From: Parvularcula bermudensis HTCC2503
Lineage (GTDB): Bacteria; Pseudomonadota; Alphaproteobacteria; Caulobacterales; Parvularculaceae
Direction of reading: 5' to 3'
Length of the DNA stretch: 64,000 bases
Assembly (NCBI RefSeq): GCF_000152825.2
Contig: NC_014414.1
Location: 2,706,501 to 2,770,500 of the forward strand
Below, one piece after another: positions 27,329 to 51,344 of the stretch. How positions within the stretch are numbered: position 1 is the stretch's first letter; every line of letters begins with the position of its first letter. The notes beneath the pieces are model-generated. The model searched no databases. It had not been told where the DNA came from and was given only the letters and a program-made list of their open reading frames with translations. The position numbers were made by a program, and so were the translations under genes.

Positions 27329-28009
27329 TCACCGCCGAATGGTGCCTTCCCGCCGCATCTTCTTTTGCAATTGCAGGAGCCCGTAGATCAGCGCCTCGGC
27401 GGTCGGTGGGCAGCCCGGAACATAGATGTCCACTGGAACGATACGGTCACAGCCGCGCACCACCGAATAGCTGTAATGATAGTACCCGCCGCCATTCGCG
27501 CAGGACCCCATTGAGACAACGTACCGGGGCGCCGGCATCTGGTCGTAAACCTTGCGGAGAGCGGGCGCCATCTTGTTGGTCAGCGTCCCAGCGACAATCA
27601 TCAGATCGGACTGGCGGGGGCTGGCGCGGGGGGCCATGCCGAACCGCTCCATATCGTAGCGGGGCATCGAGGCTTGCATCATTTCGACCGCGCAGCAGGC
27701 GAGGCCGAAGGTCATCCACATGAGCGACCCTGTGCGCGCCCAGTTGATGACCGCATCCGCTGGAGCCGTGATAAACCCCTGATCGGCCAGTTCACGATTG
27801 AGACTGGTGAAGAAAGGATCCTCGTCATCGGGGTGATAGCCCTCGACCCGTGACCTGGCCGCCGTACCATAGGGCAGATTGGCGGGGGAAATGACGCTCG
27901 GCATCTGACCGGCCGGCGCGACATCCGCGATCGGTGCCCCCGTAACAGTGGTCTCCTCGGGCGCGACGATCGGCGCCCCTTCCTTCGTGTCGGAGTCCTT
28001 TAGCGCCAT
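27329..28009 (-). CDS. nuoB: NADH-quinone oxidoreductase subunit B
   Basis: A 226-residue subunit that carries the terminal [4Fe-4S] cluster N2. Cluster ligands are the CC pair in [11 protein letters not shown], the Cys of [20 protein letters not shown] and the Cys of [14 protein letters not shown]. The enzyme core begins about residue 60; the first ~55 residues (acidic, proline- and alanine-rich) exceed the usual family N-terminus. A start further downstream cannot be excluded, but the ATG used overlaps the nuoA stop by 10 bases, as expected for coupling. Confidence 0.96.
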
Positions 28010-28395
28010 TCAAGCGCTCCTTTCTTCCACTCATAGAGAAAGCCGATGAAAAACACCGCCAGAAAGACGGCCATCGACCAGAAGGCATAGATTTGGAACC
28101 CGCGATCCATCCCGAGTTCAGGATTGAAGAGCGTGACCGCCCAAGGGAACAAAAAGGCCACGTCCAGATCCACAATGATGAAGAGGATCGCCACGATATA
28201 GAACTGAACATCGAATTTCAGTCGCGCATCCTCAAACGCCTCAAAGCCGCATTCATAGGTTGAGAGCTTTTCTGGGTCCGGCTCATTCGGCGCAAGGACA
28301 ACGGGAAGGACGAGAAACAAGATCCCCAAAACCGACGCCAACCCGGCGAAGATAATGATCGGGAGATAGTCCTGAAGGAATGCGGCATCCGCCAT
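28000..28395 (-). CDS. nuoA: NADH-quinone oxidoreductase subunit A
   Basis: A 131-residue membrane subunit of complex I with three helices (about 8-30, 64-86 and 97-118). Conserved motifs are [48 protein letters not shown]. It heads the nuo operon, with a 359-bp divergent intergenic region to the hybrid kinase gene. Confidence 0.97.
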
Positions 28396-28754
28396 GGGTC
28401 AAATCCTTTTCGTCCAATCGTCCGGTTCGCCGGCTCGATCCCGTGATCGGGAGTTTAGTGCGCCGACCGATCGGTGTCCTCTGACACGAGGTCGCCCCCG
28501 TGATGTGACATCCGTTTAGCGTCTTTTGCGCTGCCGTGAAGGGCCGATCACCGCCTCACTGGCCCTTTGGCTCTTAGCACAAGCTTACGCCTTGCTCTTT
28601 AGGGGGCATTGCGCCCCTGTCCCGCGAATAGGTCGGAAGTGACGGAAAATACACCTTGTTGACCTAGAGCGAGGGGTGATGCGGCCTCCCGCACGGGTCG
28701 CAGCGCGCAAAAAAAGGCCCCGGCCGCGATCGCCGGCAGAAAGAGGTAGCGTAC
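28396..28754. other. divergent intergenic region, nuoA / hybrid kinase
   Basis: A 359-bp stretch without a credible gene. It must hold the nuoA promoter (minus strand) and the promoter of the histidine-kinase operon (plus). Small dyads are visible: TCCCG-TGAT-CGGGA around 28440-28455, and AGGGGGC-ATT-GCGCCCCT around 28600-28617. AAAGAGG precedes the kinase ATG by about 10 bases. No RNA gene or known operator was recognised. Confidence 0.5.
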
Positions 28755-31103
28755 ATGGCCTTCGGGACAAGTCTTCGTCGGCGAGTGGAGCAGCTATCGT
28801 TCCGCAACAAAATGGGCCTCGCCACGATTTTTGCCTGCGCGCTCTGCGTGGCGACAGCCTGTGTTGCCTTCACCCTGCACGAATTAACGACCTATCGCGA
28901 TGGCTTTGAGCAGGAACAGCACGGCCTGGCGGAGGTTCTCGCCTCTAATGTGACCGCCGCCGTCCTGTTCGGCGACGAAACCATGGCATCGGATCTTCTA
29001 GGCGCCATTCGGCTGGTCCCGCAAATCGACGCCGCCTACATTCTCGCCGATGGCCGGCTCTTTGCGTATTATGAAAGTGCCGCCGCCCTCCCGAAAGACC
29101 CGCAGCTGCTCAAATCGTTCACCGAGGGCTATCCGGGGCCGACCCTGAAGGTCCCGGTGATCAGTGACGGGGAGCATATTGGCGAGCTGTTCCTCCTCAC
29201 CAACAATGACGAGTTAAAGGGGACGATTTCGTCATATTTGACGATCGCCACCCTCGTGTTTCTCGGCGCCTGTCTGATGGCCATGACCCTCGCCCATTGG
29301 GAGGCGCGGGCCATCTACTCCCCGATCTTGCGTCTTCGAACCATTATCCAGTCGATTCGGGAGACCCGGGACTATTCCGCCCGGGTCGAAACCGTGCCGG
29401 ACAAGGATTTCGGTCGCCTGATCGATAGCTTTAACGCCATGCTGGCGGAAATCGAAAATCGTGACGAACGGCTAGAACGGGTTGTCGGCGACCTGGTCAT
29501 GGCGCGCGACGCCGCCGATACCGCCAACAAATCAAAATCCCAATTCTTGGCGAATATGAGCCACGAGCTCCGGACCCCCCTGAACGCGATCATCAATTAC
29601 GCCGAAATCATCATTGAGGACCTCGAAGACGTAAAGGGTGATGAAGCCTCAACCGAAAGCCTCGAAACCGCCTCATCCGATTTGGCGAAGATCAAAAGTG
29701 CCGGGATTCACCTCCTGACCCTCATCAATGGCATCCTCGACCTCTCCAAAATCGAGGCGGGGCGGATGGAAATCGATGCCTATGCCTTTGATCTGAAGAT
29801 GACCCTGCGGGAAGTGGCCGACACTGTACGCCCCGCCGCCGAGCAGAACGGCAACCAATTGGTGATGCGCGTCGATGACCACGTCGGCACCATTGTCACC
29901 GACGGTATGAAACTGAAGCAATGCATCCTCAACCTGTTGAGCAATGCCTGCAAGTTTACCAAAGATGGAACCGTCAGCACAGAAATCAGATCGATTTCGG
30001 TCAAGGACGTACCATCCGTGGAAATCGTCGTGGCCGATACGGGCATTGGTATGGATGCCCACCAAATCGAGAGCCTGTTCGAAGCCTTTGTCCAGGCCGA
30101 TGCTTCGACGACCCGACAATATGGCGGCACCGGCCTCGGCCTGGCCATCACCAAGCGTATGGTCGAATTGCTAGGCGGGACAATCCGGGTGGAGAGCGAA
30201 CTGGGGACAGGCAGTCGCTTTATTATCATCGTCCCTTGCCAGCATCCTGCCGCCGAAAATATCGAAGTCGAAGATGTGTCAGCCGATATTGAGCACACCT
30301 TCCCCGGGACTCTCCCCGAAGCGCAAGGGACAGAGCGTCAGATTGCCCTTATCGTCGACGACGACGCGGCGGCGCGGGATCTGATGGCGCGTATCGTTCT
30401 TCGGCTTAATTACGAGGTTCGCTTTGCGAAAGACGGTGAACAGGCCCTGGCGATGATTGCCGAGGAAGACCCCGCTGTCATCGTTCTCGACCTCCACATG
30501 CCACGGATGAATGGTTGGACGCTTCTCCAACACCTCAAACGGCACGAGGAATACGCCGACATTCCGGTCATTGTCGTCAGTGTGGACGAGGATAGGGCGG
30601 CATGCCTAAAATTAGGGGCCGAAGACTATTTCACCAAGCCGCTCAATCGTCTGGAACTTGAACGGGCACTGATGTCCTATGCCGGAACGATTGATGGACG
30701 TGTACTGATCGTCGAAGACAATGAAAACGCAGTTGACCTCCTTAGTCGAGCTGCCAGTCAATTGGGGTTTGGTGTCGAGGTCGCCCGGTCGGCTGAGGCG
30801 GGACTGACCCTACTTTCCAAAGAGCCCTATCAGGGGATCATCCTCGATCTCGGCCTGCCGGGAATGAATGGCTTTGAATTTTTGTCGGTCTTACGAGAGA
30901 CCCCGGATCTTCGCGAGATCCCTGTGATCGTCTTTTCCGCGCAAGAGCTCGACGACGACCAATTATCGACCTTGTCGACGAACGCGCAGGGCTACTTCCA
31001 AAAGGGCAATGTTTCACCGCGCGCAGTGCTCCGCAATCTGGTCAAGAAATCCAATTCGAGACATGGCCCGGAGGATCAGGAAGAGGTGAATTCCGCATGC
31101 TGA
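28755..31103 (+). CDS. hybrid sensor histidine kinase with CHASE8-like periplasmic domain and two receivers
   Basis: 782 residues. Membrane helices at about 20-42 and 162-181 bracket a periplasmic domain whose core (LASNVTAAVLFGDETMASDLL, IDAAYILADGRLFAYYE, GEHIGELFL) matches the CHASE8 domain found in the diguanylate cyclase YfiN/TpbB. HAMP follows (about 183-240), then HisKA with His270 in SHELRTPLNAI, HATPase_c (N box about 393, G boxes DTGIGM and GGTGLGLAI) and two receivers with phospho-acceptors Asp579 (LDLHMPRMNG) and Asp698 (LDLGLPGMNG). The periplasmic CHASE8 fold is what YfiR binds in other bacteria, and a YfiR-family gene lies 3.8 kb downstream. The stop overlaps the next gene by 7 bp. 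Confidence 0.9.
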   Translation: MAFGTSLRRRVEQLSFRNKMGLATIFACALCVATACVAFTLHELTTYRDGFEQEQHGLAEVLASNVTAAVLFGDETMASDLLGAIRLVPQIDAAYILADGRLFAYYESAAALPKDPQLLKSFTEGYPGPTLKVPVISDGEHIGELFLLTNNDELKGTISSYLTIATLVFLGACLMAMTLAHWEARAIYSPILRLRTIIQSIRETRDYSARVETVPDKDFGRLIDSFNAMLAEIENRDERLERVVGDLVMARDAADTANKSKSQFLANMSHELRTPLNAIINYAEIIIEDLEDVKGDEASTESLETASSDLAKIKSAGIHLLTLINGILDLSKIEAGRMEIDAYAFDLKMTLREVADTVRPAAEQNGNQLVMRVDDHVGTIVTDGMKLKQCILNLLSNACKFTKDGTVSTEIRSISVKDVPSVEIVVADTGIGMDAHQIESLFEAFVQADASTTRQYGGTGLGLAITKRMVELLGGTIRVESELGTGSRFIIIVPCQHPAAENIEVEDVSADIEHTFPGTLPEAQGTERQIALIVDDDAAARDLMARIVLRLNYEVRFAKDGEQALAMIAEEDPAVIVLDLHMPRMNGWTLLQHLKRHEEYADIPVIVVSVDEDRAACLKLGAEDYFTKPLNRLELERALMSYAGTIDGRVLIVEDNENAVDLLSRAASQLGFGVEVARSAEAGLTLLSKEPYQGIILDLGLPGMNGFEFLSVLRETPDLREIPVIVFSAQELDDDQLSTLSTNAQGYFQKGNVSPRAVLRNLVKKSNSRHGPEDQEEVNSAC

Positions 31104-31495
31104 TACTGATCGCTGAAGACAACGAAGATAACCTCGAAATCCTGACCCGGCGCTTGAAACGAAAGGGGCACGACTTGATCTGTGCCCGCGACGGCCAGGA
31201 AGCGTTAGACATGGCGTGCGACGCCCTCCCCGACATTATCCTGATGGACATCAGCATGCCGATATTGTCGGGCATTGAAGCAACACAGCAGATTCGCAAA
31301 CATCCCCCCTTGCAGGAAACGCCGATTATCGCCCTCACCGCACACGCCATGGCCTCTGATCGGGAAAAATGCCTCTCAGCCGGGTGCACGGAATTCGCAA
31401 CAAAACCCATCGATTTCAAAGCCCTGCTAGGAATAATCGAAAGGCTTACGAAAGAGCCGTCCACCGATCATACGGCATCTCGGCAGACCCTATGA
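31097..31495 (+). CDS. single-domain response regulator (CheY-like)
   Basis: A 132-residue receiver without an output domain. Acid pair AEDNED at residues 6-11, phospho-acceptor Asp51 in LMDISMPILSG, conserved Thr in IIALTAHAM and Lys in EFATKPIDF. It is a probable phosphotransfer relay or output between the two kinases flanking it. It overlaps both neighbours (7 bp upstream, ATGA downstream), showing one transcript and coupled translation. Confidence 0.93.
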   Translation: MLILIAEDNEDNLEILTRRLKRKGHDLICARDGQEALDMACDALPDIILMDISMPILSGIEATQQIRKHPPLQETPIIALTAHAMASDREKCLSAGCTEFATKPIDFKALLGIIERLTKEPSTDHTASRQTL

Positions 31496-32766
31496 AACGC
31501 ACAATTTTCATCGTCGATGACGAATCCTACAACCGTGATATCGGGGCACGTGTCGTCAAACGCATGGGGCACGACGCGGAAACCTTTGCCGATGGTGCAT
31601 CGGTGATCGCACGGATCGAGGAGACCACACCGGACGCCATTTTGCTCGACATCCACATGCCGCGTCAGAACGGTCTTGAGGTGTTAAAACAGCTGCGCCA
31701 GCAATTTGCCAAATCGGCCCTCCCCATCTTGATGGTCACCGCGGATACGGGCACCGAGAAAATCGTCGAAGCCTTTCATTCTGGGGCAAACGATTATGTG
31801 ACGAAACCAATCGACAGTCAGACGCTGCGCGCTCGTCTCTCGACTCACCTTGAGCTCAAAGGCGCCGTCGAGCAGATCGAAGAATTCGCCAAAGGCGCCG
31901 AACGGCTGGTCGCAGAACGCACCCTTGACCTGCAAAAGCGCAACGAAGATCTCCAGCGAGAAATCCGCCTCAGGTTCGAAGCAGAACGGGTACTGGAGAA
32001 GAAAAAAGATGCCGCCGAGCGGGAGAGCGAAGAAAAGAGCGAGTTCCTTGCCATTCTCACGCACGAACTCAAGACCCCTCTTAATATCACGTCGGGTTTT
32101 GCTGAGCTGATCGCAAAAGACCACGAACACAGTCTCAGCCCCGGGCAATGTCGGGAATATGCTGGATACATTCACGACAGCTCCATCGGCCTGACCCGGA
32201 TCATCGAAGACATTCTCATTCTCTCCGACGACAAGGAAACGAGGGAGGAAGATGAGAGTGAAATTTCGGTCGTCGACCTTGTCGCATCGGCCGAGCACGC
32301 CCTCAAACCTCCGGCAGCCGAACGACGCATCACCGTCGAGGCGGAGATCGATCGCGCCTTAATCCTTCGGGGGAATAAAGGTCGCCTGGCCGTCGCCCTT
32401 CGTCATATCCTCTCAAATGCCGTGAAATTCTCCCGCCCCGGCCAGACCTGTTCGGTCACAGCCCATATCCGAGAAGACTTCGGGATGGATATTTCGGTGA
32501 TTGATAAGGGCATCGGTATGGACGACGCGCTTTTGGGGGAAGTGCTTCGCCCATTCCGCCAAGTGTCCAGCGGGCTTGATCGTCAATTCGAGGGGCTTGG
32601 CCTTGGACTGCCGGTGACCCGCCTGATCGTTGAGCAACATGGCGGTACCCTCACCCTTTCTAGCCGCCCCGGAGAAGGCACGACGGTGACGGTCAGCTTC
32701 CCCGCCGAGCGCACAATGATGAACTACCAGACACCTAAGACCAACTGGCAAACGCAAGCCTCATAG
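31492..32766 (+). CDS. receiver-histidine kinase fusion, cytoplasmic
   Basis: 424 residues starting at an ATG overlapping the upstream stop (ATGA). An N-terminal receiver has acid residues IVDDE, Asp53 (LLDIHMPRQNG) and the Lys of VTKPID. A long coiled coil (about 120-180) follows, then a HisKA domain with His191 in THELKTPLNIT, and HATPase_c with N-box SNAVKF, DKGIGM and GLGLGLPV. No membrane segment: the receiver likely gates the kinase, so it would be a second step in a phosphorelay fed by the upstream membrane kinase or receiver. Its own output regulator is not evident in the window. Confidence 0.92.
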   Translation: MKRTIFIVDDESYNRDIGARVVKRMGHDAETFADGASVIARIEETTPDAILLDIHMPRQNGLEVLKQLRQQFAKSALPILMVTADTGTEKIVEAFHSGANDYVTKPIDSQTLRARLSTHLELKGAVEQIEEFAKGAERLVAERTLDLQKRNEDLQREIRLRFEAERVLEKKKDAAERESEEKSEFLAILTHELKTPLNITSGFAELIAKDHEHSLSPGQCREYAGYIHDSSIGLTRIIEDILILSDDKETREEDESEISVVDLVASAEHALKPPAAERRITVEAEIDRALILRGNKGRLAVALRHILSNAVKFSRPGQTCSVTAHIREDFGMDISVIDKGIGMDDALLGEVLRPFRQVSSGLDRQFEGLGLGLPVTRLIVEQHGGTLTLSSRPGEGTTVTVSFPAERTMMNYQTPKTNWQTQAS

Positions 32767-32827
32767 CTTTTTGAAAATCTTTAGGTCTTTTTGATAGTAA
32801 ATGCGGGTATTCAGACGAGAATTTTGT

Positions 32828-34864
32828 ATGAAGAAGACAAAACCCACTCTTGGGAAGCTTCTCCTCCTTGGATCTTTGTCTTCCATGGCGCTGTGCGTTG
32901 GCGGGGCGTCCGCCCAAAACGCCCATGATTTCACCGGCATGTCGCTTGAAGAGTTAATGAGTGTCGAAGTGACGACCGTGTCGAAGCGGCGCGAAGTCGC
33001 CTCGGACGCCGCCGCTGCCGTCTTTGTTTTGACCCGTGCAGATATCGAACGGTCGGGCGCGACGACGATCCCAGATGCGCTTCGCTTGGTTCCCGGCCTG
33101 ACCGTCTCGCAGATCAATGCCAATACCTGGGGGGTGACCGTTCGCGGGTTCAACTCGCGCTTCGCCAACAAGCTCTTGGTGATGATCGATGGGCGTAGCG
33201 TCTTTACCCCCCTCTTTTCAGGGGTGAACTGGGACAAGCAAAATATCCTCCTCGAAGAGATCGAACGGATCGAAATTGTCCGGGGACCGGGGGGGACGCT
33301 CTGGGGCGCAAACTCCGTCAATGGGGTGATCAATATCATCACCCGCTCGGCCAAGGACTCCCAGGGCGCTCTCTTCAAGGCGGGGGTCGGTAACGAGCTG
33401 GAACGGCAATTGATAGCGCGGGTTGGCGGGACCTTGGGGGACAAGGGCGCTTATCGCGTTTATACCAAACACGAGGCCTATGACGGCTCGACGACGGCAG
33501 AGGGGATCGACGCCAATGATGATTGGAATATCCTCACTGGCGGGATCAGGGCTGACCTTGATCTGAGCTCCACAGACGCCCTAATGGTGAACGCTGAGTT
33601 CACCACCATCGAGGCGGGGGAAACCCTCGACCTGCCGCTCCTCACCGCCCCTTACAGCGTCCGGAGCCCTGCCGATATTGAGCGCGATAACGCCCATATC
33701 CTGACCCGCTGGACACGGACGATGGAAAATGATCGTGAATTGTCCATACAAGCGTATATAGACCATAGCGACATCACGATCCCCCAAGGCCAGGAAGAGC
33801 GCACAACTTTCGATATCGCGCTTCAGCATTCGACAAACATCGCACAAGACCATCATCTATTGTTCGGCCTCGGCTATCGTTCTATTGCAGATGAGATTAA
33901 GAACAGTAGCTTCGTCAGCATCACGAACAATGAAACTATAGTCGAGATCGTCAGCGGATTTGTTCAAGACATCTATGACGTCAGCGACGATTTCAAGCTG
34001 ACCTTCGGTTCCAAATTTTCGTACAATGATTATACGGGCTTTGAATTGCAGCCTTCTGCGCGCTTCATTTGGCAGCCGTCGGAAAGCCAGACCTATTGGG
34101 GCGCGATTTCTCGCGCCGTCCGCATTCCCTCCCGCGTCGAGGATCAGGTTCAGCTGATCGGCACGGTCGTGCCGCCGCTCACCCCGACGACCAATCCCCG
34201 CCCCCTTCCCGCCGCTTTTGTCTTTACCGGGTCGGACAAAGTTGAGTCCGAAACCCTGGTGTCCTTGGAACTGGGTGCGCGCTTCCGTCCAGCACCCGGT
34301 ATTTCCGTCGACCTTGCAACCTTCTACAACGATTACGACAATCTTCGCGCTTCGTCGCTCCAGGCGCCGCAGCCGGGAATACTGAACGGCGAGATGGCCA
34401 CGATCGTTCCCCTGACGGTCGCCGATGTTGTTTCCGCCCAGAGCTTCGGTACGGAAATGGTCGCAAACTGGCAGGTCAAGCCGAACTGGCGCCTACAGGG
34501 CACTCTCACCCTGATCGACTTCAACACAGATGACCTCGACGACCCAACCCTCATAGCAACGCCTGCGGGGTCGCGGGATCCAGCCTCCCAGGCGACCTTC
34601 CGCTCCCTGCATGATGTAAACGACCGTATCAATTTCGACTTCGTCGTCAGATATGTCGACAATCTCGAAGACTTCGATATCGATGACTACACGCAACTCG
34701 ATATTCACGGTAGCTACGATCTCTCCGATCGCGTCAGCCTTTCGGTGGCAGGCAGGAATCTCCTCGACGATGAGCATTACGAATTCGGGGTTGATCCCAG
34801 TTATGCCACCTTACCAACGGCTGTAGAGAGAAGCTTCTTCATTAGTCTGACGGCGCAGTATTGA
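32828..34864 (+). CDS. TonB-dependent outer-membrane receptor
   Basis: About 678 residues. A signal peptide (KLLLLGSLSSMALCVGGASA) ends around residue 30. The plug domain (about 45-165) shows EVTTVSKRREVASDAAAAVF, IERSGATTIPDALRLVPGL, VRGFNSRFANKLLVMIDGRS, and IERIEIVRGPGGTLWGANSVNGVINIITR. The barrel follows and finishes with ...SFFISLTAQY, an aromatic terminal residue. ATG 32828 is chosen because it starts the signal peptide; an in-frame ATG 27 bases upstream is possible. The gene begins 61 bp after the kinase operon and is followed 19 bp later by yfiR-like, so it could import or sense a ligand for this island. Substrate unknown. Confidence 0.9.
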   Translation: MKKTKPTLGKLLLLGSLSSMALCVGGASAQNAHDFTGMSLEELMSVEVTTVSKRREVASDAAAAVFVLTRADIERSGATTIPDALRLVPGLTVSQINANTWGVTVRGFNSRFANKLLVMIDGRSVFTPLFSGVNWDKQNILLEEIERIEIVRGPGGTLWGANSVNGVINIITRSAKDSQGALFKAGVGNELERQLIARVGGTLGDKGAYRVYTKHEAYDGSTTAEGIDANDDWNILTGGIRADLDLSSTDALMVNAEFTTIEAGETLDLPLLTAPYSVRSPADIERDNAHILTRWTRTMENDRELSIQAYIDHSDITIPQGQEERTTFDIALQHSTNIAQDHHLLFGLGYRSIADEIKNSSFVSITNNETIVEIVSGFVQDIYDVSDDFKLTFGSKFSYNDYTGFELQPSARFIWQPSESQTYWGAISRAVRIPSRVEDQVQLIGTVVPPLTPTTNPRPLPAAFVFTGSDKVESETLVSLELGARFRPAPGISVDLATFYNDYDNLRASSLQAPQPGILNGEMATIVPLTVADVVSAQSFGTEMVANWQVKPNWRLQGTLTLIDFNTDDLDDPTLIATPAGSRDPASQATFRSLHDVNDRINFDFVVRYVDNLEDFDIDDYTQLDIHGSYDLSDRVSLSVAGRNLLDDEHYEFGVDPSYATLPTAVERSFFISLTAQY

Positions 34865-34883
34865 GGGGTCATCAGACAGTCCG

Positions 34884-35462
34884 ATGGCGATGATCCCTCG
34901 ATATATCCACGCCGCACTTCGAAAGAGAGTGCTCGCCATTCTCGCGATGGTCGCGACAGTGCTCGCGATGACCTCTCCTGCCGCCGCCTCTCAGGACGCC
35001 GCGGCGGAAGAAGCACTAAAGGCGGCGTTCATCTATAACTTCGCCAAGTTCACCCAATGGCCTGATCTCGATCAGGACGACCCGGTTCATTTCTGTATTC
35101 AGACAGACACGATCGACACCAGGATTTTTGCCGGGTGGGAACAAAAATCCCTCAAAGGTCACCCCATCAAGGTATCCTTCGTCAGCGGAGATACCAACAC
35201 CTTACCGAAAGATTGCTCTCTTCTTTTCATTCGCTACACTGAGGCAGAAACACTCCTCTCCCTGCTGAAAAAAGCGAATGACGCCAACATCCTGACCGTC
35301 TCCGACCGCGTCAACTTTGCGTCAAATGGCGGTCATATCGAACTGTTTCAAGAAGACAAAAAACTGAGGTTCCGCGTCAATTTAAGCGCCCTCAATAACG
35401 CTCGGCTCTCACTTGGATCCGGCATGTTGCGTTTGGCCGAACTTGTGAAGAGCAAGCGATGA
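34884..35462 (+). CDS. YfiR/DUF4154 family periplasmic protein
   Basis: A 192-residue exported protein: signal peptide to about residue 36 (VLAILAMVATVLAMTSPAAAS), then the family hallmark EALKAAFIYNFAKFTQWP and the later NILTVSDRVNFASNGGHIELFQEDKKLRFRVNLSAL. In Pseudomonas, YfiR is a redox-sensitive periplasmic repressor that binds the CHASE8 domain of YfiN; here no GGDEF cyclase is near, but a CHASE8-type kinase is. Two cysteines (HFCIQ, KDCSLL) could form a disulphide. It lies 19 bp after the TonB receptor and its stop overlaps the acyltransferase ATG (ATGA). Confidence 0.88.
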   Translation: MAMIPRYIHAALRKRVLAILAMVATVLAMTSPAAASQDAAAEEALKAAFIYNFAKFTQWPDLDQDDPVHFCIQTDTIDTRIFAGWEQKSLKGHPIKVSFVSGDTNTLPKDCSLLFIRYTEAETLLSLLKKANDANILTVSDRVNFASNGGHIELFQEDKKLRFRVNLSALNNARLSLGSGMLRLAELVKSKR

Positions 35463-36199
35463 CCGGCCAAGCAAACTCACCCCTCAAAACCGGCCACTCT
35501 ACTGGTTTCATGATGCGCAGTCATGGCAGCGTAGACAAGCATTTCGATCTTGAGCTGAAATACTCCAGCGATCGGGACCACGTGCTGCAGTGCCAGCGTC
35601 TAAGATACAAAGTCTATTGCGTCGAACGCGGGTGGTATGATGAAGTCACCTTCGAAGATGGGCGGGAGCACGATGAATTCGACGACAGATCCGTTCACGC
35701 CCTGATTACCCGCCTTCGCACTGGCGAAGGGGTCGGGGTTGTTCGGATGATTTTGCCGGAGAATAACGGAAACGGTCCGAACCTCCCTATCCAGGAAATC
35801 GACCCTTCCCCTCTGTCGCTGATTAGCAATCATGTGGACTTTGATCGTATGGCCGAAATTTCGCGGTTTGCGATCACCCGAGACTATCTCAAGGCCCAAG
35901 TCGGACAATCCATCGGTCAAAAGCGTCAAGGCTTTTCCCATCTGTCCTTGGGTCTCCTGCGCGCAGTGGTCCTGATGTCACGGGACAACAATATACGTTA
36001 TTTGTGTGCGACCATGGAATATACCCTACTGACCCTGTTCGCGCGGGTGGGTATTCGGTTCATCCCCTTGGGCGAACCGCGCTCCTATCATGGCATCCGT
36101 CAGCCCTGCTATTGCGATCTCAACCAAGTGAAGGATGAGATGCGCATGCTCGCACCGGAATTCTTCTCCCAGGTGTTTGACAGCAACGACCCCTTCTAG
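35459..36199 (+). CDS. LuxI/FeeM-like acyltransferase (exosortase-associated acyltransferase type)
   Basis: A 246-residue GNAT-fold protein resembling the PEP-CTERM/exosortase-associated acyltransferase and N-acyl amino acid synthase FeeM, relatives of LuxI autoinducer synthases. The LuxI-style residues are aligned: Arg in RLRYKVYC, Trp in ERGWYDE, acidic pair in REHDEFDD, Arg in VGVVRMIL, and a later EISRFAITRDY. Members acylate an amine (homoserine lactone or amino acid) from acyl-ACP. No exosortase, EPS or LuxR gene is near. Translationally coupled to the YfiR-like gene. Its stop TAG lies in the terminal CTAGAG of repeat copy B. Confidence 0.82.
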   Translation: MTGQANSPLKTGHSTGFMMRSHGSVDKHFDLELKYSSDRDHVLQCQRLRYKVYCVERGWYDEVTFEDGREHDEFDDRSVHALITRLRTGEGVGVVRMILPENNGNGPNLPIQEIDPSPLSLISNHVDFDRMAEISRFAITRDYLKAQVGQSIGQKRQGFSHLSLGLLRAVVLMSRDNNIRYLCATMEYTLLTLFARVGIRFIPLGEPRSYHGIRQPCYCDLNQVKDEMRMLAPEFFSQVFDSNDPF

Positions 36200-36302
36200 A
36201 GCATTCTCAAGAGAATCGGCAGTCGGTTCGTGCAAAGAGAATACGATAGAAGTGAAACGGCTCTAGATCGGCAACGATCAATCGGAGTCGTGAATTATCT
36301 CT
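36195..36302 (+). repeat. dispersed intergenic repeat, copy B (composite)
   Basis: The first 72 bp (TCTAGAGCATTCTCAAGAGA at one end, ACGGCTCTAG at the other) match the outer parts of the other copies. Adjacent bases 36273-36295 (GATCAATCGGAGTCGTGAAT) repeat the opposite-orientation end of copy A. The TAG of CTAGAG is the acyltransferase stop codon. Confidence 0.6.
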
Positions 36303-36319
36303 CTTTCGTCTGTATAAGG

Positions 36320-36341
36320 CCTCTGCAGTAGGCTGCAGAGG
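36320..36341. terminator. perfect 9-bp stem-loop between convergent genes
   Basis: CCTCTGCAG (36320-36328) and CTGCAGAGG (36333-36341) form a perfect stem with a TAGG loop. It lies between the acyltransferase (plus) and the soluble hybrid kinase (minus) and could terminate both; no T-tract is present on either strand. Confidence 0.55.
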
Positions 36342-36348
36342 AGAACGG

Positions 36349-38121
36349 TCAACCGACGGCCTCAACGCCAATATCGGCTGCCATGCCGTGGGCATCCAGA
36401 ACTTGCCGTATTCGGCGCAAGAGATCGTCGGGCTCAAAGGGCTTTGAGACAAAGTCACTGGCCCCGGCCTCCATGCAGGCCGTGATCTCTCCGGGAGAGG
36501 CATTTGCGGACAGGGCAACGATAGGCATGTCCTGATGCGGACCCTCTTCGGCTCGGACATGTCTCATCAGCGCAAGCCCGTCGACGACAGGCATCCGAAT
36601 ATCCGTGACCAGAAGAGAATATCGCTTCATTTCAAGCTTTGACAACGCGTCTTGACCGTTTTTGGCAACATCGACGTCAGGGGATAATCTCGACAATACA
36701 GTTCGTGCAAGGAGGGCATTGATTGGATTATCCTCCGCCAGGAGAATGCGCATCCTGTCTTGCTGTGTATCGGAGGCAACGTATTCGTCTTCCGAAAGAT
36801 CTTTGCCCGTAACTTGTGCGATCAAGCTTTTTGTCCGGACAGGCTTTAACAGATAGGCGTCGAATCCCATCCGCCGGAATGAATCGTACCGCCCACGGGC
36901 CGCATCCGTCAGCAGCACCACAGAGCGCTGAGCCACCCCTGTCAATTCAGCGCCATAGGTTGTCGCCAGGACCATATCCATCAATAGACACGCATTAGGG
37001 GTCCTGGCCAGCCATGCCTTGACCATTGGAACGCTATCGGAGACCAAGTATCGATTGATACCAAGGCCGGACAATTGAAGCTCCATTGCACGTCGCTGGA
37101 TCTTAGATCGTATACAGACAGCTACGGGAAACTCAGGTTCGATACGGTGTTTCAGGTCTTCGGCTGGCTGATCGACTTTTGAAACGAAGTTGAACGTAAA
37201 AGCACTGCCCTCCCCCGGCACGCTCTCAACAACGATGTCGCCCCCCATGGCCCTCGCCAGATTGCGCGCAATAGCCAAGCCAAGCCCTGTCCCTTCGGAC
37301 CGGTCACCAGCTGCGCGCGCGCCACGATCAAATTGCTCGAAGATCGACGACTGGCGCTCGGGATCGATCCCCACGCCGGTATCTTCGATCCGTACAGAAA
37401 TATTCGTCGTTCCGGCCTGATCGTCTGGATCGGCGGTCATAAAGACCGCAATGCCGCCTCGATCGGTAAATTTCACGGCGTTGCCAAGGATATTGAAAAT
37501 GACCTGTTTGATACGCCCCTCATCGGCGAAAACCGTCTGGGGTACCGCCGGATCGACGAAACTCGCGATATCGAGATCCTTTTGGGCACAGCGCGGCGCC
37601 AAGAGTTCGGTCACGGCTTCGACGATAATCCGCAGATTGGTCGGCTCTTCCTCAAGCTCGATCCTCCCCGCTTCCAAGCGTGAGAAATCGAGGAGATCAT
37701 TGATCAGCGTCAGGAGGTCTTCTCCACTCTGACGAATCGCTTTGACGTAGCAGTCCTGGCTCGCCGAAAGATTGCCGTCGAGAAGGAGGCCCGCCATCCC
37801 CAATATACCGTTCAGCGGCGTCCGCAACTCATGACTGATGGTTGCGACATGGTGGGACGTTGCCCCTCTAGGAAGGTGTGATGTGGTCTTAGAGAGAGCG
37901 ACCATGGCACGGCCCCCTCCAAGGGCGTAGGTCGTCGTTTCGAACTCATCCCCGGCCACCAGGCCCGCTTGAAAAGCCGGAAGTTCCTCCCCGAGTCTGA
38001 CGGTGTATCCCGCCTCGGTCAAAATATCTCCAAAGGACCGAGACATCTGCAGCACTTTTCCCTCTGGATCCAAGAAACAGAGAGGGTCGGCTCCCATGGA
38101 GAGAATGTCTTCCGGATGCAC
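36349..38121 (-). CDS. cytoplasmic hybrid histidine kinase with degenerate and active receivers
   Basis: 590 residues without a membrane helix. A short PAS-like N-terminus (about 10-75) precedes HisKA with His97 in ISHELRTPLNGILG and HATPase_c (NAVKF, EDTGVGID, GTGLGLAIARNLAR). A middle pseudo-receiver (about 325-440) retains the Lys of YLLKPVRTK but lacks the usual acid pair and acceptor. A C-terminal receiver is intact, with LLAEDNPIN, VTDIRMPVVDG and FVSKPFEPDD. It is convergent with the acyltransferase and separated from it by a repeat and hairpin. It may share substrates with the other two kinases of the island or be unrelated. Confidence 0.88.
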   Translation of the reverse strand: MHPEDILSMGADPLCFLDPEGKVLQMSRSFGDILTEAGYTVRLGEELPAFQAGLVAGDEFETTTYALGGGRAMVALSKTTSHLPRGATSHHVATISHELRTPLNGILGMAGLLLDGNLSASQDCYVKAIRQSGEDLLTLINDLLDFSRLEAGRIELEEEPTNLRIIVEAVTELLAPRCAQKDLDIASFVDPAVPQTVFADEGRIKQVIFNILGNAVKFTDRGGIAVFMTADPDDQAGTTNISVRIEDTGVGIDPERQSSIFEQFDRGARAAGDRSEGTGLGLAIARNLARAMGGDIVVESVPGEGSAFTFNFVSKVDQPAEDLKHRIEPEFPVAVCIRSKIQRRAMELQLSGLGINRYLVSDSVPMVKAWLARTPNACLLMDMVLATTYGAELTGVAQRSVVLLTDAARGRYDSFRRMGFDAYLLKPVRTKSLIAQVTGKDLSEDEYVASDTQQDRMRILLAEDNPINALLARTVLSRLSPDVDVAKNGQDALSKLEMKRYSLLVTDIRMPVVDGLALMRHVRAEEGPHQDMPIVALSANASPGEITACMEAGASDFVSKPFEPDDLLRRIRQVLDAHGMAADIGVEAVG

Positions 38122-38288
38122 GCGCTGCCACCACCCCTTCGAGTCGAAGAAGTGATAGGGCCATCAGGTGAAGGAAGCTCAAAAAACTCCCGACAAATTG
38201 AGTTGGTTTGTCAGGGCAAGAAGAAAGGAACCGGGACTGGCGCCTTTCCTCGTTTCGTTGTTTTACTGACATTTCCATCGTTAAACGA

Positions 38289-38996
38289 TTAGAAACGGAA
38301 ACTGAGCCCCGCGCTATAAACGGTCGGATCGAGCTTAACCCGCGCATCCCCCTTAACCAGCAGCGCCAGAGATTCAGGGTCGATCAGCTTGAATTGGTTG
38401 TCCGCCTCAAGCTCAATCTTTTTGACGTCGGCAAAGACACCGATATTCTCGGTCAATTTCACGTTCACCCCGGCAGTCACCCCCCAGCCGGCGTGATTAT
38501 CGACTTGCAAGCGTTCAAGGGTGTCTTCTTCCTCGTCGAACACAATCACATAAGTCGCTGCGACGCCGATATAGGGGCTGATCCTGCCGTCCACATTGAA
38601 ATGATAACGGGCCTGGATCACCGGCGGGCCGTACCAAACGTCACCAAAATCCCCCAAAGCTCGCAAAGACCCCCGGGCCTTAATGGTGGAGGTCGGCGGC
38701 ACCCCCAATGTCGCCGCGATCGAGACATTCCGCGTGAGAAAATAACCGATCTCAAAACTCGGCGTGATGACGTCCTCAACGGATACCGTGGAATTGGGAA
38801 TCGACAGATCTTCGATTAAAGTTCTGTCACCGAAAACGACGTCGGTCGTGACGATGCCATTACTATCGAAATCAATCTGGGTTGCGCCAACGTTGAGATA
38901 GAAATTGTCGATCCAATTCGGCATAGCCTGCGCATTTGCGCCAAAGATCATCGTACTCGCCGCTAAAACGCCACTTGCGGTCGCTCGAACGCCCAT
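38289..38996 (-). CDS. OmpW family outer-membrane protein
   Basis: A 235-residue eight-stranded beta-barrel porin. A signal peptide (about 1-23, ending ANAQA) is followed by NFYLNVGATQIDFDSNG, EIGYFLTRNVSIAATLGVPP, LPPT-like WYGPPVIQARYHFNVDGRISPYIGVAATYV, GWGVTAGVNVKLTENIGVFADVKKIEL and the terminal YSAGLSFRF (last residue aromatic). OmpW carries small hydrophobic molecules. A second OmpW gene is at 50637. The 180-bp region before it is AT-rich and likely holds its promoter. Confidence 0.92.
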   Translation of the reverse strand: MGVRATASGVLAASTMIFGANAQAMPNWIDNFYLNVGATQIDFDSNGIVTTDVVFGDRTLIEDLSIPNSTVSVEDVITPSFEIGYFLTRNVSIAATLGVPPTSTIKARGSLRALGDFGDVWYGPPVIQARYHFNVDGRISPYIGVAATYVIVFDEEEDTLERLQVDNHAGWGVTAGVNVKLTENIGVFADVKKIELEADNQFKLIDPESLALLVKGDARVKLDPTVYSAGLSFRF

Positions 38997-44977: not shown

Positions 44978-45991
44978 TTAGTGATAACCGGCGTCGGGAT
45001 CGATCTTTCCACGGAACACCCAATAGGCATATCCCGTATAGGCAAGAATAATCGGTATCAGGATCACGGCGCCGACAAACATGAAAATCTGCGATTTAAA
45101 GGGGGTCGCCGCATCGAGGATCGTCACTTCCGTGGGGACGATATAGGGATAAACCGAGACCCCAAGCCCCACAAAGCACAAGGCGAATAGCGCAAGGCTC
45201 AAAACGAAGGGGGAGTAATGATAGGGTCGCCTATTGATCGACTGGAATAAGAGGAACGTCAGGACCGCCACGGCGAGGGGAACGGGCGCGGCCAAAATCA
45301 AGCCTGGCATTTCGAACCAGCGATCCGAATAGCTGCTCTCCACAAAGGGGGTAAAGAAACTCACCACCGCGATAAAGGCGATCGTGGCCACCGCAAAGCG
45401 CCAAGCGAGATAGCGCGCGCGGTCGTGAACCGGCCCCTCGGTTTTCATCAGGAGCCAGGTCGCGCCCAGTAATCCATATCCCATGACCACCGCCGCACCG
45501 GTGAGGAGAGAGAACGGGCTCAACCAATCGAACCACCCGCCCCCATAGGCGCGGCCATCGACCTCAATGCCCTGAAGCCAGGCCCCAAGCGTCACCCCTT
45601 GGGCGAAGGCGGCGGTGATCGATCCCCCGATGAAGGCACGGTCCCAATAGCGATTCCAGCGCAAGGTCCGCCACCGATATTCAAAGGCGACCCCTCGAAA
45701 AACCAGCGCCAGCAACATGGCAATGATCGGCGCATAAAGGGCGGGCATGATGATGCCGTAAGCCATGGGGAAGGCCGCGAATAAGCCCCCGCCCCCCAGC
45801 ACCAGCCAGGTCTCGTTCCCGTCCCAAACCGGCGCGACCGTGTTCATCATCAGGTCGCGATCCTTCTTCTCAGGAAAGAACGGATAGAGGATCCCCACCC
45901 CAAGATCGAAGCCGTCGAGCACGACATAGATAAAAACGGCGGTGGCGAGGAGAAAGGCCCAGGAATGGGCGAGCCAAATGCTGACTTCCAT
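44978..45991 (-). CDS. cioB: cytochrome bd-type quinol oxidase subunit II (CioB type)
   Basis: 337 residues, eight or nine membrane helices, subunit II of bd-type oxidase. Family sequence: VFIYVVLDGFDLGVGILYPFF, WDGNETWLVLGGGGLFAAFP, and EYRWRTLRWNRYWDRAFIGGS; the C-terminus retains FMFVGAVILIPIILAYTGYAYWVFRGK. The shorter length compared with the other subunit II at 47749 fits the cyanide-insensitive (short Q-loop) class. Six bases after the subunit I stop; DUF2474 follows. Confidence 0.92.
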   Translation of the reverse strand: MEVSIWLAHSWAFLLATAVFIYVVLDGFDLGVGILYPFFPEKKDRDLMMNTVAPVWDGNETWLVLGGGGLFAAFPMAYGIIMPALYAPIIAMLLALVFRGVAFEYRWRTLRWNRYWDRAFIGGSITAAFAQGVTLGAWLQGIEVDGRAYGGGWFDWLSPFSLLTGAAVVMGYGLLGATWLLMKTEGPVHDRARYLAWRFAVATIAFIAVVSFFTPFVESSYSDRWFEMPGLILAAPVPLAVAVLTFLLFQSINRRPYHYSPFVLSLALFALCFVGLGVSVYPYIVPTEVTILDAATPFKSQIFMFVGAVILIPIILAYTGYAYWVFRGKIDPDAGYH

Positions 45992-45997
45992 GACGAT

Positions 45998-47416
45998 TTA
46001 CTCCGCCGAGGCGCTAGGGGGATAGGGATCGAAAAGGGGAGCGGGGACGATACCGCCCGTGCGGATCGGCGCCGCCTCGGCCCCAGGCTCACTCGGGAGA
46101 GGCGCGGCGGCCATCAGGCGCAGAATGTAGAAGACCCCTGCCCCAAAAACGAGGAAGTAGATCACGATGAAGGCGAGGAGCGACGTGCCCACGGCCGGCG
46201 CATCCAACGGACTCACCGACTCGCTTGTCCTGAGCACCCCATAGACCGTGTAAGGTTGACGTCCCACCTCGGTGGTAATCCACCCGGCGATCACGGCGAC
46301 GAGCCCCGAAGGACTCGAATAGAGGGCCGCTCGGTGAAGCCATTTATTGGTGTAAAGGGTGCCACGAAACCGAGCCCACAGGCCAAAAAGGCCCACCCCG
46401 AGCATGAGAAAGCCAAGGGCCACCATAATTCTGAACGACCAGAAGACAATCGCCACCGGCGGCTGCTCATCGTCCGGGATCGTATCAAGGCCCGCCAGCG
46501 GCGCATCCCACTCATGTTTGAGGATCAGCGAGCTCAGCTTAGGGATCCCGACGGCATATTTCAGCTCTTGCTCCTCATCGTCGGGGATGCCGAACAGATA
46601 GAGCGGCGCACCGTCGGGGTGGCTTTCATAATGCCCCTCCATGGCCATGACTTTTTGCGGCTGATGGTCGAGCGTATTGAGACCATGGAGGTCGCCGAGG
46701 AAGATTTGCAGGGGCGCGACAACCGCCGCCATCCCCATGGCCATGGAGAACATGGTCTTCACCCCCGCATTGCCGCCCCGCCCCTTGAGGAGATGCCAGG
46801 CCGCGACCCCGCCGACGATGAAGGCGGTGGTGAGATAAGCCGCCGTCAAGGTGTGGGCCAAACGGTAAGGGAAGCTTGGGTTGAAGATGATCTCCAGCCA
46901 ATTGACCGGGATGAATTGCCCGGCATCGTTGATCGTATAGCCGGTGGGGGTGTGCATCCAGCTATTCACGGAGAGAATCCAGGTGGCGGAAATCGCCGTT
47001 CCGATGGCCACCATCAGACAGGCGATCATATGCAGGGTTGCCCCCACCCGCTCCCGACCGAAGAGCATTATGCCAAGAAAACCTGCTTCGAGGAAAAAGG
47101 CGGTCAGCACCTCATAGGCCATGAGGGGGCCAATCACCGGACCGGCCTTGTCGCTGAAGACCGACCAATTCGTCCCGAATTGATAACTCATCGTGATGCC
47201 GGAGACGACGCCCATGGCGAAGGCGATCGCGAATATCTTAATCCAAAACTTGAAGAGTCTCAGATAAGCATCCTTTTTCGTGCGTAGATAGAGGGCGTTC
47301 AGAACAGCGAGATAGCTCGCAAGGCCAATGGAGAAGGCCGGGAAGATAAAGTGGAAGGCAACGGTGAAGGCGAACTGGATCCGCGCCAGGATCAGGGGAT
47401 CAAATTGAGCGAACAT
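45998..47416 (-). CDS. cioA: cytochrome bd-type quinol oxidase subunit I (CioA type)
   Basis: 472 residues, subunit I with hemes b558, b595 and d. It starts MFAQFDPLILARIQFAFTVAFHFIFPAF with the axial His (heme b595/d) in the FHFIFPAFSIG stretch, then FWIKIFAIAFAMGVVSGITM, and the quinol-site signature GRQPYTVYGVLRT. The periplasmic Q-loop is short, as in CioA. An ATG 25 codons upstream is open but adds a non-conserved leader; the internal ATG with AGGG 8 bases upstream gives the normal N-terminus. Confidence 0.92.
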   Translation of the reverse strand: MFAQFDPLILARIQFAFTVAFHFIFPAFSIGLASYLAVLNALYLRTKKDAYLRLFKFWIKIFAIAFAMGVVSGITMSYQFGTNWSVFSDKAGPVIGPLMAYEVLTAFFLEAGFLGIMLFGRERVGATLHMIACLMVAIGTAISATWILSVNSWMHTPTGYTINDAGQFIPVNWLEIIFNPSFPYRLAHTLTAAYLTTAFIVGGVAAWHLLKGRGGNAGVKTMFSMAMGMAAVVAPLQIFLGDLHGLNTLDHQPQKVMAMEGHYESHPDGAPLYLFGIPDDEEQELKYAVGIPKLSSLILKHEWDAPLAGLDTIPDDEQPPVAIVFWSFRIMVALGFLMLGVGLFGLWARFRGTLYTNKWLHRAALYSSPSGLVAVIAGWITTEVGRQPYTVYGVLRTSESVSPLDAPAVGTSLLAFIVIYFLVFGAGVFYILRLMAAAPLPSEPGAEAAPIRTGGIVPAPLFDPYPPSASAE

Positions 47417-47518
47417 AGCAACACCCTCGGATTGGTCCTCGAATACTGAATGGGCATATAGAAACGGTATAGCCCAAAGGATACGCGTCATACTGACCGC
47501 GAGGATTGTCCCCTACGC

Positions 47519-47545
47519 AAAACGGCCCTCCGCAGGGAAGGGCCG
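47519..47545 (-). terminator. intrinsic terminator of cydABX
   Basis: On the minus strand CGGCCCT (47545-47539) and AGGGCCG (47529-47523) form a 7-bp stem with a 9-base loop followed by TTTT (47522-47519). It lies 46 bp after the cydX stop and separates the CydABX operon from CioAB, which would need its own promoter in 47417-47518. Confidence 0.75.
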
Positions 47546-47590
47546 CTGTGCCGGTGTCCGAAAGAGTTAGCGAGGCGAAGGGCGCGAGGC

Positions 47591-47728
47591 TTAGTGCTCT
47601 TGGCCGAGAATGGGAGCCGACTCGGTGCCATCGGCCTGGCGCGTCCGTTTCAATTCGAACCACATGGCGTTGAGGATCCCGACCAACGCCGCGAAACCGA
47701 GCCCGAGGGCCCAAGCGAAATACCACAT
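47591..47728 (-). CDS. cydX: CydX-like bd oxidase small subunit
   Basis: A 45-residue peptide, MWYFAWALGLGFAALVGIL and then NAMWFELKRTRQ, almost the textbook CydX/CbdX opening MWYFAW-xLG. One membrane helix sits at the N-terminus; the C-terminus is polar. CydX stabilises subunit I and the heme environment in the long Q-loop oxidase. Located 20 bases after cydB with an AAGGAGAG site 6 bases before ATG. Confidence 0.92.
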   Translation of the reverse strand: MWYFAWALGLGFAALVGILNAMWFELKRTRQADGTESAPILGQEH

Positions 47729-47748
47729 TTGTTCTCTCCTTATCGCGA

Positions 47749-48897
47749 TCAGTATGCGTGGTCCGCAGTCTTCAGGCTCTCGGTGGTGACCCGTCCCGAC
47801 ATGACCCGATAGGCCCAGGCCGTGTAGGCCAGGATCAGCGGGAGAAAGATCACCGTGGCAATCAGCATGTTCCGCAGGGTCGCCTGGCTGGAGCTTGAGT
47901 CGAAAACCATCAAGCTATGGGACGGATTTACCGTGCTGGGCAGGATGAAGGGAAACATCGAAACGCCCACAGTTGCGATGACTGAGGCCACCCCAAGCCC
48001 GGTTGCCACAAGCGTCAGACGTTGATGTTTGACCGCAAATCCAAAGGAAGCGGCGGCGAAGCCAAGAACACCGAGGGCGGGCACGATCCAAAGGATCGGC
48101 GCGGCATTGTAATTGGCAAGCCAGGCGCCCGCCTCGGTCACTGCCTCTTTGGCAAGAGGGAAGCTGCCCGCCTGCCAATCAGCGCCACCGACCACGGCAT
48201 AGCCACCAAGACCGCCCATCGCGACCAGGACACCGCCCAGGACGAACAGAATTGCCGAGCCGATCGCCCCCCACTGGCCAATGACGCGGGCCCGCTCGGC
48301 GACCACTTCGTCCGCTTTGAGATGCAGCCAGGCGGCCCCATGAGCGGCGATCATGACAAGCGATAGAACGCCGCAGAACAACGCCGCCGGGTTGAGGAGC
48401 CCAAAGAGCCCCCCCTGATAGTCGGGGCGCAAATCACCGTCATACACAAAGGGAACCCCGATCAGTGCATTACCGACGGCCACGCCGAAAATCAGCGGCG
48501 GCACCAATCCCGATAGGGTAAGCGCCCAATCCCAGCGTGAGCGCCAGACCTGCCCTGCCCGCTTCGAGCGATATTTGAAGGCCACGGGGCGCAGAATAAG
48601 AAAGAACAGCACCAGGAACATGGCCAGGTAGAAGCCCGAAAAGCTGAGGGCATAGAGGGCCGGCCAAGCAGCGAAGATCGCCCCGCCGCCGAGAATGAAC
48701 CATACCTGGTTGCCTTCCCAGACTGGGCCGACCGTGTTGATGACGACCCGCCGCTCGCTGTCGGACCGGGCGACGAGCGGCAACAGGCCCGCCGCCCCCA
48801 TATCGAACCCATCGGTGACGGCGAAGCCAATGAGGAGGATCCCCAGAAGCGCCCACCAGATCACCCTGAGCGTGGCATAATCGAACAAGAATTCCAT
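47749..48897 (-). CDS. cydB: cytochrome bd quinol oxidase subunit II (CydB)
   Basis: 382 residues, subunit II of bd-I-type oxidase. Sequence includes IGFAVTDGFDMGAAGLLPLV, VVINTVGPVWEGNQVWFILGGGAIFAAWP, RPVAFKYRSKR and the final IATVIFLPLILAYTAWAYRVMSGRV, typical of CydB. Longer than the CioB copy. Order cydA-cydB-cydX on the minus strand with 27- and 20-base gaps. Confidence 0.96.
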   Translation of the reverse strand: MEFLFDYATLRVIWWALLGILLIGFAVTDGFDMGAAGLLPLVARSDSERRVVINTVGPVWEGNQVWFILGGGAIFAAWPALYALSFSGFYLAMFLVLFFLILRPVAFKYRSKRAGQVWRSRWDWALTLSGLVPPLIFGVAVGNALIGVPFVYDGDLRPDYQGGLFGLLNPAALFCGVLSLVMIAAHGAAWLHLKADEVVAERARVIGQWGAIGSAILFVLGGVLVAMGGLGGYAVVGGADWQAGSFPLAKEAVTEAGAWLANYNAAPILWIVPALGVLGFAAASFGFAVKHQRLTLVATGLGVASVIATVGVSMFPFILPSTVNPSHSLMVFDSSSSQATLRNMLIATVIFLPLILAYTAWAYRVMSGRVTTESLKTADHAY

Positions 48898-48924
48898 AAC
48901 TTGGTCCTTTAATAATAGCTCGGA

Positions 48925-50514: not shown

Positions 50515-50564
50515 AGAATCCTCCAACACTCATGCGCTTGTGGAATTTTTCGCCGCTGCGATCT

Positions 50565-50578
50565 TTGCGCGAACGCAA
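50565..50578. promoter_or_regulatory. Crp/Fnr-type dyad TTGCG-N4-CGCAA in the cydABX/ompW-cydDC promoter
   Basis: TTGCG (50565-50569), spacer CGAA, CGCAA (50574-50578), a perfect 14-bp palindrome half-sites of Crp/Fnr family geometry. It lies 51 bp upstream of the cydA ATG and 59 bp upstream of the ompW ATG, a position able to affect both. The same half-sites recur at 55724. Confidence 0.6.
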
Positions 50579-50636
50579 GGACACCCAAGGGACAACGGCG
50601 CAGATGCTCTCACACCTTCTGTGATGGAGCGCTAAG

Positions 50637-51293: not shown

Positions 51294-51301
51294 TCTTTGG
51301 T

Positions 51302-51322: not shown

Positions 51323-51344
51323 GCCGTTCTTCACCTCATAGTTC

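Follow-up and report, generated by a model that had tools for sequence, protein, structure and literature searches.

Six tightly packed plus-strand genes of Parvularcula bermudensis HTCC2503, at positions 28755-36199 of a 64,000-nucleotide stretch of contig NC_014414.1 (positions 2,706,501 to 2,770,500; hereafter the window), probably constitute a trans-envelope signalling cassette of the YfiR-CHASE8 type, in which a histidine kinase output replaces the diguanylate cyclase. To our knowledge, YfiR is known experimentally from one setting, the cyclic di-GMP (c-di-GMP) switch of Pseudomonas and enterics. The genes encode, in order, a CHASE8 hybrid kinase, a receiver, a receiver-kinase, a TonB receptor, YfiR and an acyltransferase. 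They are spaced by -7, -4, +34, +19 and -4 bp, and therefore look like one operon:

28755..31103, plus strand: CHASE8 hybrid histidine kinase of 782 amino acids (Pfam, hydrophobic segments, motifs, AlphaFold model)
28956..28970, plus strand: codons of A68-F72 (AAVLF) in the kinase gene, counterpart of the YfiN AAVVF patch (PMC3375315)
31097..31495, plus strand: stand-alone receiver with D51 (Pfam, motif)
31492..32766, plus strand: receiver (D53) - HisKA (H191) - HATPase protein (Pfam, motifs), in which no transmembrane (TM) segment was found
32801..34864, plus strand: TonB-dependent receptor (Pfam), best family NF053590 (TOL_0244)
34884..35462, plus strand: YfiR/HmsC-like protein (PF13689) with an N-terminal hydrophobic segment, Cys71 and Cys111
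35459..36199, plus strand: PEP-CTERM/exosortase system-associated acyltransferase of LuxI fold (GNAT/LuxI-fold protein), its start overlapping the yfiR stop by 4 bp

The kinase is ordered TM, CHASE8, TM, HAMP, HisKA, HATPase, receiver, receiver, and the Pfam labels of the operon's genes lie above their cut-offs except HAMP, which falls just below (22.3 versus 25). An earlier note on this DNA, made from its letters alone, had assigned the periplasmic part of the kinase to CHASE8, and Pfam sets residues 49-147 in that family (PF17152; 8.9e-20, 71.3 bits versus a cut-off of 27), flanked by hydrophobic segments at residues 21-39 and 162-180. Its grouping of CHASE8 kinase, YfiR and TonB receptor in one island also stands. 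An AlphaFold model of kinase residues 1-235 (61-row alignment; predicted local distance difference test score (pLDDT) 91.1) consists of two long helices with a mixed sheet-helix domain between them. Only four PDB matches to it have an E of 0.001 or better (models of WalK and of a chemoreceptor, an output domain of LapD type and a WalK receptor domain), CitA is among the matches at E 0.022, and a sequence search of PDB chains with CHASE8 gave chance matches only. Phosphoacceptors are present at H270, D579 and D698 of the kinase, D51 of the receiver, and D53 and H191 of the receiver-kinase. A phosphorelay through the latter two proteins is plausible.

No GGDEF cyclase gene was found in the window, as the same note had observed: a self-built GGDEF model labelled no frame, and the sole near-motif across the six frames, AGDEF, lies inside a soluble hybrid kinase convergent with the operon. 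Pfam reported no Hpt domain among the eight window proteins scanned and no OmpA-like YfiB partner among the operon's proteins.

The YfiR protein matches PF13689 at 1.1e-39 (136.3 bits, cut-off 24.9). A sequence search of PDB chains found no solved relative, and a fold search succeeded instead. The model (63-row alignment, mean pLDDT 91.8) has as its first 15 PDB matches 12 chains titled YfiR or YfiB-YfiR and three (4zhu, 4zhy), titled as a bacterial repressor or signalling complex, that we take to be YfiR; identities are 13-15% and TM-scores by target 0.68-0.77. YfiR has two cysteine pairs (PMC4655355). The first is common to P. aeruginosa YfiR (71/110) and the window protein (71/111); it occurs in all cyclase-linked YfiR and, by column, in 64% and 73% of kinase-linked YfiR. 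Unlike P. aeruginosa YfiR, the window protein lacks the second pair (145/152), with Ala and Glu in these places. Both of these cysteines are present in 14 of 14 OmpA-linked cyclase YfiR and in about 9% of the 22 other cyclase-linked ones, and the two columns hold cysteine in 5% and 0% of 132 kinase-linked YfiR.

YfiN mutations that cause insensitivity to YfiR group at Ala66, Ala67, Val68 and Phe70 (AAVVF), the proposed YfiR site (PMC3375315), and the window kinase carries AAVLF at residues 68-72 of its periplasmic domain. In the F72 column, 127 of 128 CHASE8 domains linked to kinases have phenylalanine, as have 32 of 32 linked to cyclases. A strict motif, AA[VLIM]xF, is matched by 72 of 128 and 22 of 32, respectively, and a loosened form by 122 of 128 and 32 of 32 (155 of 161 with the window included). 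For controls, 11 stretches were fetched, of which six had an alignable CHASE8 match and one of these six came from a YfiR-bearing genome; among the CHASE8-like proteins of YfiR-less genomes, 0 of 5 show the loosened motif, and two of these keep the phenylalanine. Two unlinked kinases from genomes with YfiR elsewhere, including the second kinase of this genome, retain the motif.

Conserved gene order mostly joins yfiR to a CHASE8 kinase. Genes in the scans of this genome and its genus, of the class and of the phylum were labelled with self-built hidden Markov models seeded from the window and relatives instead of Pfam. A partner was a gene on the same strand within 3 kb, and an OmpA or TonB neighbour one on the same strand within 3.5 kb; short contigs depress the counts. 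YfiR occurs in eight of 10 genomes of the genus sample, and G003 and G006, the two without it, likewise show no strong match to the model of the YfiR-associated kinase. The yfiR and CHASE8 kinase genes overlap by 1-4 bases in five relatives, the order is kinase, TonB, YfiR in another (L045), and one genus member (G001) is the exception, with the two genes on separate contigs. In two genus relatives (L040:7020-8822, L042:10431-12365), the gene immediately upstream of the yfiR-kinase pair is feoB, which serves ferrous iron transport, or a close homologue of it, a hint of an iron-related signal.

An even sample of the class (337 genomes) includes 19 with YfiR and 27 that match CHASE8, 21 of them above the cut-off. 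It yielded 26 YfiR matches, with 21 open reading frames (ORFs) within the fetched stretches: 17 adjoin a CHASE8 kinase and none a cyclase, two adjoin a kinase without CHASE8, one a CHASE8 fragment and one no partner. The remaining five matches comprise this genome's three and two weak ones (28.6 and 22.1 bits), whose loci have receiver and TonB genes (L155) or TonB and, by the self-built model, no YfiR (L156).

A phylum sample of 398 genomes, inferred to be Pseudomonadota, has YfiR in 94 (126 matches), of which 100 from 91 genomes were fetched and classified. Fifty-two are beside a kinase (51 CHASE8 kinases, one without CHASE8), 30 beside a cyclase (27 CHASE8 cyclases, three in which no CHASE8 was found), six are fused to a kinase, four adjoin CHASE8 with neither output and eight have no partner. 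By genus, 24 have kinases, 21 cyclases, none both, and six have fusions. OmpA-like (YfiB-like) genes, found by a sequence motif, neighbour 14 of 30 cyclase loci versus 0 of 52 kinase loci (Fisher 6.6e-8), and TonB genes 38 of 52 kinase loci versus 11 of 30 cyclase loci (Fisher 0.002), p-values that overstate the contrasts because related genomes are not independent. With 38 of 100, TonB plus a CHASE8 kinase outnumbers every other class.

The arrangement extends beyond Pseudomonadota. A scan of genome contigs with a TonB alignment matched at least 585 stretches, at least 517 of them confirmed, and by their titles the best 80 of the 517 come from Acidobacteria, Desulfobacterales, Nitrospirota, Nitrospinaceae, Verrucomicrobia, Zixibacteriota, Wallbacteria, Gemmatimonadetes and others. 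Among these best 80, 68 contain YfiR, 53 with an adjoining CHASE8 kinase and five with a CHASE8 cyclase; YfiR was not seen at the other 12, some on short contigs. For 14 of 56 CHASE8-kinase-linked YfiR ORFs in the best 80, there is a receiver-GGDEF gene no more than 3 kb from the kinase, so c-di-GMP can still end the chain; the phylum set has one such case in 51 and the window none. At one locus (L171:5622-8961) two YfiR ORFs precede one CHASE8 kinase, like the two-YfiR Thauera system of Malone et al.

Six natural single-protein fusions (L261-L266), from six genera of the phylum sample, carry PF13689 near the N-terminus, then a hydrophobic segment and a histidine kinase, with ~150 residues, coiled coil by eye, between YfiR and the hydrophobic segment. 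HATPase is present in all six; HisKA is above its cut-off in two, below in three and unreported in L266, and L265 additionally carries a receiver. Three of the six have TonB genes nearby, on the same strand in L262 and the opposite strand in L263 and L264. No CHASE8 match was found in the six. The fusions suggest that a kinase can be acted on by a YfiR covalently built into its sensor, which makes action in trans more likely without proving it.

On a tree of 174 YfiR domains, made after removal of domains of <110 residues and of YfiR that have no partner or a CHASE8 fragment beside them, the fusions form one group (Shimodaira-Hasegawa-like approximate likelihood ratio test 99). Partner type changes 11 times versus 39.0 in shuffles; this is a tree made by a quick method, on which near relatives cluster anyway, and well-supported branches force only two changes. 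Support is below 80 at 74 of 171 inner branches. The window YfiR belongs to no well-supported set, and its top identity is 37%, to a kinase-linked protein (L070).

The earlier note knew of no such described system, a view that does not survive comparison with the literature and databases. Malone et al. (2012; PMC3375315) described divergent Yfi systems in which sensor histidine kinases replace the GGDEF output, alongside other replacements (GGDEF-EAL pairs, Hpt, MCP), and proposed a modular, older YfiR-YfiN core. The kinase reading is sound but was foreseen in 2012. NCBIfam has models for a trio of TonB receptor (NF053590, TOL_0244), YfiR-like protein (NF053591, TOL_0243) and YfiR-like protein-associated sensor histidine kinase (NF053592). 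No bench test of the YfiR-kinase pairing turned up in the open-access literature searched (subscription journals and preprints lay outside the search), nor did any account of a TonB receptor standing in for YfiB, of fusions of YfiR with a kinase or of the acyltransferase coupling; by titles and abstract openings, none of the papers on YfiR and TonB found in that search describes the arrangement.

Like YfiBNR of P. aeruginosa (PMC3375315, PMC4655355), the window system has a YfiR fold and a periplasmic sensor between two TM helices with an AAVVF-type patch. Unlike YfiBNR, its output protein is a hybrid kinase (HisKA/HATPase) instead of a GGDEF cyclase, and it has a TonB receptor where YfiBNR has the OmpA-like lipoprotein YfiB. 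It shares with the divergent Yfi systems of PMC3375315, identified in silico and including that of Thauera sp. MZ1T, a YfiR and a YfiN-like sensor with a (hybrid) histidine kinase, and may differ from them in its TonB receptor, 'TonB' having 0 occurrences in that paper's main text. The NCBIfam trio gives its TonB receptor and its YfiR their best NCBIfam matches, and the N-terminal part of its kinase a full-length match; it differs from the trio in having three further genes in the operon and in scoring below all three cut-offs. The island is a divergent variant, with a receiver and a receiver-kinase between the kinase and TonB genes and an acyltransferase gene coupled to yfiR. A candidate N-terminal TonB motif specific to YfiR-linked receptors was dropped, as the patterns missed most receptors that carry the segment by eye.

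We envisage that secreted YfiR would bind the AAVLF patch of CHASE8 in the periplasm and thereby keep the kinase in one state. The TonB receptor may do what YfiB does in P. aeruginosa: when a ligand binds or is taken up at the outer membrane, the amount of YfiR free for CHASE8 would change. Phosphate would then pass from the kinase to its own receivers as well as to the receiver and the receiver-kinase of the operon, with the final output lying outside the operon. Control of a kinase by YfiR, as the earlier note had proposed, is a well-supported prediction: linkage, the joint absence in two genus members, the motif, the fusions, the YfiR fold and the modularity proposed by Malone et al. speak for it, and YfiR acting on the kinase instead of a cyclase is the best reading.

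Several points weigh against this reading. Linkage and motifs differ in kind from binding data, and the coupling of the TonB receptor is proposed from neighbourhood. Three genes separate the kinase from yfiR in the window, which the 3-kb rule therefore scored as 'kinase without CHASE8'. The window's TonB receptor, YfiR and kinase reach 615.3 of 645, 94.1 of 125 and 146.9 of 194 bits, respectively, against the trio models. The strict motif is kept in only 72 of 128 kinase-linked domains, the loosened pattern was devised after the column counts were known, and its control is small and weak: five sequences, two sharing a genus code and two at or below the Pfam CHASE8 cut-off. The motif is also missing from a weak, unlinked CHASE8-like protein (L365) whose genome has YfiR. 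Kinase-linked YfiR keep the first cysteine pair only in part (64% and 73%), and the fusions lack it. Finally, at 14 of the 52 kinase-linked loci there is no TonB gene on the same strand within 3.5 kb, in some cases because the contig ends.

The genome itself supplies the alternative that survives best. It holds three YfiR and two CHASE8 kinases at four places, and partners may therefore be crossed: the island YfiR might mainly control the other CHASE8 kinase (L036:6724-9114, ~387 kb) or be shared, while the island kinase answers to another TonB-YfiR pair. That kinase has no adjoining YfiR and keeps AAVLF, and two TonB-YfiR pairs (L037:8679-11275, ~949 kb; L038:7097-9690, ~2052 kb) have no adjoining kinase. 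We nevertheless think such wiring unlikely, since the island alone among the four places has both partners, and the clustering of partner type on the YfiR tree fits pairs that travel together.

It is more doubtful still that YfiR is a small substrate-binding protein serving the TonB receptor while neighbouring kinases sense something else through CHASE8. In favour of such a role, the next PDB matches to the YfiR model after the first 15 are mostly substrate-binding proteins (ranks 16-19 and 21-23), and six of the eight phylum-sample YfiR without an output gene nearby have a TonB gene. It would leave the YfiR-kinase fusions and the conserved CHASE8 motif unexplained.

The last gene of the operon had been labelled a LuxI-like synthase, a name that its best-scoring family does not bear out. 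This acyltransferase, ACYLTRANSFERASE (35459-36199), scores 163.4 bits against the exosortase-associated family TIGR03694 (cut-off 111.95) and has one copy in the genome. A quorum-sensing circuit, in which it would make an acylated signal detected by the receptor or kinase, is very improbable. Speaking for it are Pfam matches above the cut-offs of Autoind_synth (29.0 bits, cut-off 24) and FeeM (30.4, cut-off 27), the presence of the LuxI-type motif and E-x-S-R, and weak PDB matches to N-acyl-homoserine lactone (AHL) synthases. Against it, TIGR03694 scores far higher, AHL-synthase models are far below their cut-offs (NF010408, 26.4/292; NF052393, 23.6/250), the genome has exosortase A, and no LuxR-type receptor (PF03472) was matched in the genome at E <= 0.001.

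The single exosortase match in the genome is an exosortase A (TIGR03109, 221.3 bits versus 208), ~61 kb from the acyltransferase gene and followed by a match, below cut-off, to the XrtA/PEP-CTERM amidotransferase. Just before exosortase A lie BamA/TamA-like and TamB-like genes, below cut-offs (L136:6321-14924, ~2674-2683 kb). The acyltransferase resembles other TIGR03694 members in its score and in the exosortase A of its genome, and differs from other cases in sitting in a YfiR operon at a distance from the exosortase gene. It probably belongs to the XrtA/PEP-CTERM programme and not to an autoinducer circuit, and would be a co-regulated part of that cell-surface programme, co-expressed with the signalling genes. 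In the 337 class genomes, TIGR03694 matches 102 at E 0.001 and seven above the cut-off, and YfiR is present in just one of these seven, this genome. A scan of other loci (within L036-L161, L162-L180 and L258-L357) that used the window protein as query gave no acyltransferase homologue, so this is as yet the one place where the coupling to yfiR is seen; as the query was a single-sequence model, it may have passed over distant members.

Two genes flank the operon:

28000-28395, minus strand: nuoA, named by eye, left neighbour of the six-gene row
36349..38121, minus strand: soluble hybrid histidine kinase, convergent with the operon (Pfam, hydrophobicity scan, motifs)

The soluble hybrid kinase may or may not be part of the operon's system. 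It has two receiver regions, one degenerate-looking, and an OmpW-family protein adjoins it (36349-38996). To map the right border of the island, eight relatives were compared with the window and its flanks. In the stretches of ~4-14 kb taken past nuoA, matches of >=45% identity were limited to nuoA, nuoB and frames antisense to them, so in these relatives nuoA does not have the island beside it; a few weaker matches are to kinase and TonB domains. A promoter scan found no plus-strand promoter-like site at 28300-28755 (12 sites versus 5.8 in shuffles), and terminator-like sites numbered five versus 11.3 in shuffles; neither result was used. Farther along, two adjacent gene pairs resemble, by eye, cytochrome bd oxidase subunits (44978-50529), with an apparent cydDC-type transporter pair, also by eye, in the same region (51345-54472 of 44978-54472).

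A broader proposition, which we offer tentatively and with less conviction than the local one, is that TonB receptor, YfiR and CHASE8 kinase form a general, cross-phylum route from outer-membrane receptors to cytoplasmic phosphorelays. FecAR-type signalling, by comparison, is of the sigma/anti-sigma kind, and this route would be distinct from it. The trio would be the commonest form of the YfiR module, YfiBNR a later branch with YfiB and a cyclase, and YfiR a covalent kinase sensor in one branch; in the window the route might also drive an exosortase-associated acyltransferase. If true, the c-di-GMP setting would be the smaller YfiR branch, as 58 of 100 YfiR in the phylum sample are beside or fused to a kinase, and many TonB receptors would gain a signalling partner and a testable contact, that of YfiR with an AAVVF-type patch. 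The window itself is of moderate value: it adds a further case, somewhat divergent, in which the acyltransferase is an unusual passenger. Of the by-products, most interest attaches to the exchange of a TonB receptor for YfiB and to the natural YfiR-kinase fusions, the latter a simple test bed.

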